NCBI GenBank assembly: GCA_021324655.1
Contig: JAJPIP010000020.1
Location: 1-55,061 of the forward strand
Direction: 5' to 3'
Length of the DNA stretch: 55,061 bases
DNA from: Pseudomonadota bacterium
GTDB lineage: Bacteria > Chloroflexota > UBA5177
Shown: in pieces, positions 23,838-24,937 of the stretch
Layout: each line of letters opens with the position of its first letter
How positions within the stretch are numbered: the stretch's first letter is position 1
Translations under genes and position numbers: made by a program
The notes under the pieces: model-generated
Told to the model about the DNA's origin: nothing
Seen by the model: the letters and a program-made list of their open reading frames with translations, nothing else
Databases searched by the model: none

Positions 23838-23843
23838 TACAAT
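23838..23843 (+). promoter_or_regulatory. Probable -10 box (TACAAT) of the pyrB leader
   Basis: TACAAT on the plus strand would start transcription near 23850, giving a leader of about 113 bases before pyrB. No good -35 is visible. No plus-strand gene lies upstream within 1.5 kb, so some promoter is needed here. Confidence 0.4.
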
Positions 23844-23889
23844 GGGAACGACGTACAGACGGGCTGCGCGGCAGCTCGCACGAGGACGC

Positions 23890-23952
23890 ATGTCGTGGAA
23901 TCACGGACCGATAGAAGATGGCAGGGAGGCTAGGTGCCTCCTTTTTTTGTGA
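23890..23952 (+). CDS. Candidate pyrB leader peptide (20 residues)
   Basis: The reading frame MSWNHGPIEDGREARCLLFL followed by TGA runs through both arms and the T-run of the terminator at 23925-23948. It stops ten bases before the pyrB ATG. GAGG lies four bases ahead of its ATG. This matches the layout of the Escherichia coli pyrBI leader, where a ribosome close behind RNA polymerase opens the terminator. An upstream hairpin, CACGA (23879-23883) with TCGTG (23893-23897), covers the start codon. Expression is unproven, and a 20-codon frame can occur by chance. Confidence 0.35.
   Translation: MSWNHGPIEDGREARCLLFL
23925..23948 (+). terminator. Intrinsic terminator/attenuator in the pyrB leader
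   Basis: GGAGGC (23925-23930), loop TAGGT, GCCTCC (23936-23941), then seven T (23942-23948). It sits 14 bases before the pyrB ATG. The gene upstream is on the opposite strand, so it cannot be the terminator of a preceding plus-strand gene and most likely attenuates pyrB. Confidence 0.75.
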
Positions 23953-23962
23953 GGTGGACTGA

Positions 23963-24937
23963 ATGAGACTGCATCACGTGGTGGCGGCCCAGGACTTCAA
24001 CCGGGGCATGCTGGAGGAACTGTTCGCGCAGAGCCGGCGCATGGAGACGGTCGTGAGCCACGGGGGTGTGCCGGCCCTCGCCGGCTGCATCATGGCGAGC
24101 CTCTTTTATGAGGAGAGCACCCGGACCAGGTTCTCGTTTGAGTCCGCCATGCTCCGTCTGGGTGGCAGCGTGATCTCCACTGAAAACGCGAGGCAATTTT
24201 CCTCCGTGTCCAAGGGAGAGACCCTCGAGGACACGGTTCGCATCCTCAACGGGTACGCCGACGTCATTGTGCTGCGTCACTACGAGGCGGGCGCCGCACG
24301 CCGGGCGGCGGACGTTTCGCGTGTGCCTGTCATCAACGCGGGCGACGGAACCGGCCAGCACCCGACGCAGGCGTTTCTCGATCTCTACACGATCGAGAAG
24401 GAACTCGGGCACATTGATGACATAACGATCGCCGTGGTCGGCGATCTGGCCAACGGCCGCACGGTCCGCTCGCTTTGCTATCTTCTCGCCAAGTACCGGA
24501 ACGTGCGTGTCTACATGGTGGCGCCGGAAGTCGTGCGCATGCACGACGATATCAAGGAGTACCTGGCCCGCCATGACGTGAGATTCCGCGAAGTCGACGA
24601 TCTCAACGCGATCGCGCCGGAGATCGACGTTCTCTACCAGACACGCATCCAGCGCGAGCGCTTCGCGGACCGCGACGAGGATTATCAGCGGGCGCGCGGG
24701 GTGTACGTGGTCGATCGTGAGGTTCTCAATCTGATGCGCCCCGACTCGATCGTCATGCATCCGCTGCCGCGTGTCGATGAGATTGCGGTGGACGTCGACG
24801 GCGATCCGCGGGCCGCATACTTCCGGCAGGCGCAGAACGGGTTGTATATCCGCATGGCGTTGCTCGCTGCCTGCCTGGGCCGCGATCTGTCGGTCGACGC
24901 GGTGCCGTTCAACGGGGCGACGTTGACCACGGCGTGA
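23963..24937 (+). CDS. pyrB: Aspartate carbamoyltransferase catalytic subunit
   Basis: Catalyses carbamoyl phosphate plus aspartate to carbamoyl aspartate, the committed step of pyrimidine synthesis. About 324 residues. The carbamoyl-phosphate loop is YEESTRTRFSFESAM and the interdomain site INAGDGTGQHPTQAFLDLYTI; the aspartate-binding tail is MHPLPRVDEI. These motifs are of the PyrB rather than ornithine type. GAGGTGG precedes the ATG by five bases, directly after the leader terminator. No pyrI, pyrC or pyrR gene is next to it; the following gene is mrfA, 54 bases on. Confidence 0.96.
   Translation: MRLHHVVAAQDFNRGMLEELFAQSRRMETVVSHGGVPALAGCIMASLFYEESTRTRFSFESAMLRLGGSVISTENARQFSSVSKGETLEDTVRILNGYADVIVLRHYEAGAARRAADVSRVPVINAGDGTGQHPTQAFLDLYTIEKELGHIDDITIAVVGDLANGRTVRSLCYLLAKYRNVRVYMVAPEVVRMHDDIKEYLARHDVRFREVDDLNAIAPEIDVLYQTRIQRERFADRDEDYQRARGVYVVDREVLNLMRPDSIVMHPLPRVDEIAVDVDGDPRAAYFRQAQNGLYIRMALLAACLGRDLSVDAVPFNGATLTTA

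Follow-up and report, generated by a model that had tools for sequence, protein, structure and literature searches.

Attenuation of the pyrBI type involves a U-rich, UTP-sensitive pause before the terminator, and falling UTP leads to more read-through. In E. coli, the terminator is kept from forming by the ribosome that translates pyrL (PMC5021804). Ribosomes positioned close to a stop codon also suppress terminators in their vicinity (PMC4824070). The 5' leader of carA in Pseudomonas (P. aeruginosa, with a leader peptide, and P. syringae, with P32) contains a terminator between the promoter and the gene, for which pyrimidine attenuation has been proposed (PMC4997734). Neither pyrB nor Chloroflexi occurs in the main text of a survey of premature terminators (PMC2965389), and no paper on pyrB attenuation in Chloroflexota was found in the literature searched.

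We analysed the region upstream of pyrB in a 55,061-base stretch of Chloroflexota DNA, below called the window. The following features were found:

23838..23843, plus strand: TACAAT, resembling a -10 box, of the presumed promoter of pyrB, with a weak -35 box; TACAATG also occurs upstream of pyrB in relatives
23890..23952, plus strand: leader frame 1, 20 codons, MSWNHGPIEDGREARCLLFL and stop; GAGG at 23882-23885, spacer 4
23918..23962, plus strand: leader frame 2, 14 codons, MAGRLGASFFCEVD and stop; the stop TGA abuts the pyrB ATG, and there is no clear ribosome site
23925..23941, plus strand: candidate terminator hairpin GGAGGC-TAGGT-GCCTCC, -13.7 kcal/mol in isolation, arms kept in three genera
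23942..23948, plus strand: seven-T tract of the terminator, read from the sequence
23951..23957, plus strand: Shine-Dalgarno box GAGGTGG of pyrB, just 3' of the T tract; base-pairing to the terminator's 3' arm is possible
23963..24937, plus strand: pyrB, aspartate carbamoyltransferase catalytic chain, 324 aa (TIGR00670, 332 bits against a cut-off of 237)

The terminator stem is perfect (arms 23925-23930 and 23936-23941), and an eight-pair version spans 23923-23943. Its T tract is the only run of at least seven T or A in the window, and the hairpin is the best terminator-like site in the 10 kb scanned. The first-pass annotation, made from this sequence, had placed the stem and seven T 14 bases ahead of pyrB, and these coordinates are correct. 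It had also proposed that the terminator acts on pyrB itself. The closest gene upstream is an aldo/keto reductase-like frame on the minus strand, so the terminator has no adjacent plus-strand owner. A terminator of an upstream plus-strand gene was thus rejected, since that gene is divergent, as was a minus-strand terminator, since the T run is absent on that side. In the relatives described below, the structure again belongs to the pyrB leader, and the gene upstream is divergent. These positions strongly support a candidate terminator that would act on pyrB itself.

The class of the window is represented by only seven genomes. The pattern GGAGGCN{2,9}GCCTCCTTTTT was searched in eleven genomes, and had one match each in the genome of the window (G000) and in two other genera of its family (G002 and G004), every match directly before pyrB, and none in the remaining genomes. 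The pyrB terminator is thus kept in three of the five genera of the family, and together with the rarity of its T tract in the window this sets the hairpin above chance. The arms GGAGGC/GCCTCC are invariant in these three genera, and the loops vary (TAGGT, AGAAG, TCTG). The pyrB leaders of G001, G003 and G005 do not contain the terminator. In the leader of G001 (L086), a strong hairpin GGTCCGTGGG/CCCACGGGCC is present without a T run.

The motif TACAATG was observed upstream of pyrB in G000, G001, G002 and G004, and in all of these except G001 the start codon lies 116-136 nt away; the box of the window was not recovered by a strict consensus promoter scan. No conservation was seen between this box and the hairpin across the three genera, and the leader, being otherwise unconserved, has no candidate aptamer. 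Rfam gave no match in the leader at the gathering threshold, and at relaxed thresholds only weak, unrelated matches far below the gathering scores. A riboswitch was rejected on these two grounds. Two additional small hairpins of the first-pass annotation (23863-23875 and 23879-23897) show no conservation and do not exceed chance (z = -1.15 for the fold of the whole leader), and were discarded as functional parts.

Candidate terminators were also found upstream of other pyrimidine genes. The carA genes of G000, G001, G003 and G004 (loci L190, L189, L218 and L188, respectively) are preceded by two tandem terminators with stems around CTCGTCC/GGACGAG and T-tracts of five to eight bases, the second of them close ahead of the carA start. 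The arms are near-identical. Pairing holds in 95.7% of cells over the eight hairpins, six cells show compensatory changes on both sides, and none of 500 shuffles reached either value; stem covariation was 0.262 versus 0.147. A TGGTGGCG block between the tandem terminators is common to L189, L218 and L188, the three carA leaders other than that of G000. The arrangement at carA is analogous to the Pseudomonas carA leader in having a terminator ahead of carA, but differs in the two tandem copies, in the occurrence in Chloroflexota, and in the accompanying pyrB terminator.

A terminator precedes pyrC in G000 and G002, 3' of a small same-strand frame. A small basic frame conserved between L205 and L204 (MASTRRRK...KKANHGKRPLAGK) has its end immediately ahead of the terminator directly preceding pyrC; this terminator may thus only end that gene. 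Upstream of pyrE, the search gave no terminator. The hairpin arms differ between pyrB, carA and pyrC, and therefore a common protein-binding site in the hairpins was rejected.

The locus resembles E. coli pyrBI with PyrL in having an intrinsic terminator with a T run just before pyrB, a frame that crosses it and ends near the pyrB start, and no need for a regulator protein. Leader frame 1, proposed in the first-pass annotation as a 20-codon frame with a GAGG site, is indeed present, traverses the hairpin, and stops at the Shine-Dalgarno box of pyrB. However, 22-41% of shuffled window leaders contain such a frame, and thus the window alone is at chance. Leader frame 2 was absent from that annotation. 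In the pyrB leader of G002, a GTG start behind the strong ribosome site GGAGGT opens a frame of 16 codons, whose phase relative to the hairpin and stop are both as in the window, whereas the 29-codon TTG frame of G004 is in a different frame, with a poor start and a distant ribosome site.

Frames with an ATG, GTG or TTG start and a Shine-Dalgarno box of at least four bases at a spacing of 3-12, a criterion chosen post hoc, cross the last terminator in all seven pyrB and carA leaders of the family. In the carA leaders such frames cross both terminators in four of four genera, with shuffle fractions of 0.15, 0.42, 0.15 and 0.69. Multiplied over the seven leaders, which are related, the shuffle fractions give about 4e-5 for a criterion set after inspection. 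With ATG starts only, most of the seven leaders fail; the starts vary between ATG, GTG and TTG, and some of the ribosome sites are poor. No conservation of the leader peptide sequence was found among the pyrB leaders of the family. Since the criterion was set post hoc, the leaders are related, and ATG starts alone fail, we give the frame evidence moderate weight. A translated leader frame spanning the terminator, and with it translation coupling, is thus a moderately supported prediction. The likeness to pyrBI suggested in the first-pass annotation stands for the terminator, whose stem recurs in three genera, and to a moderate degree for the frame as such, but does not extend to the sequence of the peptide.

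In two other respects the locus differs from E. coli pyrBI, namely in that carA also has terminators, and these in tandem, and in the composition of the leader. The window leader contains 12% U and no UU (longest U run 1), where that of E. coli reaches 31% and has U runs of five; this agrees with the earlier observation that no U-rich pause precedes the terminator. Among the three family pyrB leaders with the terminator, only that of G002 contains U5, and a U-rich pause is absent from those of G000 and G004. The depletion of U itself was rejected as a signal, as 11% of window segments are equally U-poor.

The best reading, to which we give about an even chance, is transcription attenuation of pyrB in which translating the leader frame relieves the terminator, as in E. 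coli pyrBI. In its favour are the single match per genome at pyrB, the absence of PyrR and of an aptamer, the tandem terminators at carA, the frames in the seven leaders and the Latescibacterota leaders described below. Against it are the unconserved peptide and variable starts, the chance-level frame of the window, the lack of a U-rich pause in G000 and G004, and the three pyrB leaders that have no terminator. RNA polymerase would start near 23850, transcribe a leader of about 110 nt, and meet the terminator, with 14 nt left between its T tract and pyrB; in the default state, a large part of transcription would end there. A ribosome close behind the polymerase, on the leader frame that crosses the hairpin, would keep the hairpin from forming, so that transcription would enter pyrB, and would finish at the pyrB ribosome site. 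The signal would presumably be pyrimidine supply, acting via UTP-limited polymerase speed or by another route. Judged from the leaders compared here, translation coupling is plausible and UTP sensing unproven.

A parallel was observed in a clade of Latescibacterota; of this phylum, that of L033, 50 pyrB loci were examined. A terminator with a T run is present in the pyrB leader at 16 of these loci (among leaders L138-L155). Thirteen of them have, 7-10 nt past a TATATT box with a TTGC-type -35 box upstream, an ATG whose frame stops in the hairpin, past it or only a few bases away. It is possible that these leader frames are leaderless or nearly so; leaderless translation is a prediction here, as the transcription start is itself inferred. 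The frame of L138, which is the L033 locus, terminates in RGAFFVP; the sequence of E. coli PyrL reads RGAFFCPGVRR at its end. PyrR was over the cut-off in none of the nine of these genomes searched. The Latescibacterota hairpin stems align in different registers and are unlike those of the Chloroflexota group, and the two groups may be convergent.

Rather tentatively, one may imagine a PyrR-free attenuation regulon in the Chloroflexota family, with tandem terminators at carA and one at pyrB, paralleled by the leaderless or nearly leaderless frames of Latescibacterota, in which the coupling of polymerase and ribosome is read out unlike in pyrBI. Most of these leaders contain no U-rich pause, and thus the readout would be of a kind not known from pyrBI. 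The attenuation proposed here would extend repressor-free control of pyrimidine genes past the best-studied proteobacterial cases, and raises the question of how supply is sensed in leaders lacking a U-rich pause, with leader peptides that in Latescibacterota are possibly leaderless.

It is conceivable, although we consider it doubtful, that the terminator is regulated without leader translation, and that an RNA-binding protein, a small RNA or an alternative pairing decides on read-through. The invariance of GGAGGC/GCCTCC in three genera with diverged surroundings is consistent with this explanation, as is the ability of the 3' arm (CCUCC) to pair with the Shine-Dalgarno box of pyrB (the folded stretch gives -8.5 to -11.5 kcal/mol), which also makes a translational layer possible. 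However, sequence conservation is confined to the hairpin and the ribosome site, and the differences between the arms at pyrB, carA and pyrC leave no common binding site. Nor do the folds of the pyrB leader show a clear antiterminator pairing that would compete with the hairpin.

A partial terminator that acts constitutively, senses nothing, and simply keeps pyrB low or blocks stray transcription, would agree with the divergent upstream gene and with the lack of a conserved sensor. We consider it unlikely: insulation alone needs no site behind the gene's own promoter, and the recurrence of terminators as two tandem copies at carA and in the pyrB leaders of another phylum suggests regulation.

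Attenuation by PyrR, of the type found in Bacillus or in other Chloroflexota, is highly improbable for the pyrB gene of the window, since neither the PyrR gene nor its RNA site, both of which such leaders need, was found. In a profile search with NF003549, in which the positive controls and four other Chloroflexota passed the cut-off, none of the seven genomes of the class, which are incomplete assemblies, had a match over it (best 39 bits against 138), and the best matches in G000 and G002 are frames that, judged by eye, resemble hypoxanthine-type phosphoribosyltransferases. The segment GGGAGGCT of the window is superficially like a PyrR loop, but the leader has no match to the PyrR binding RNA RF00515 even at relaxed thresholds.

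On the other hand, PyrR-controlled leaders govern the same genes and occur in related Chloroflexota. PyrR is encoded adjacent to pyrB in G030, G038, G021 and G046, and the pyrB leaders of G030 and G038 contain weak RF00515 matches of 34-39 bits, below the gathering score of 54 bits. Within one phylum, control of pyrB would thus switch between PyrR and terminator systems. The loci L090 and L091 contain pyrB with an adjoining PyrR gene.
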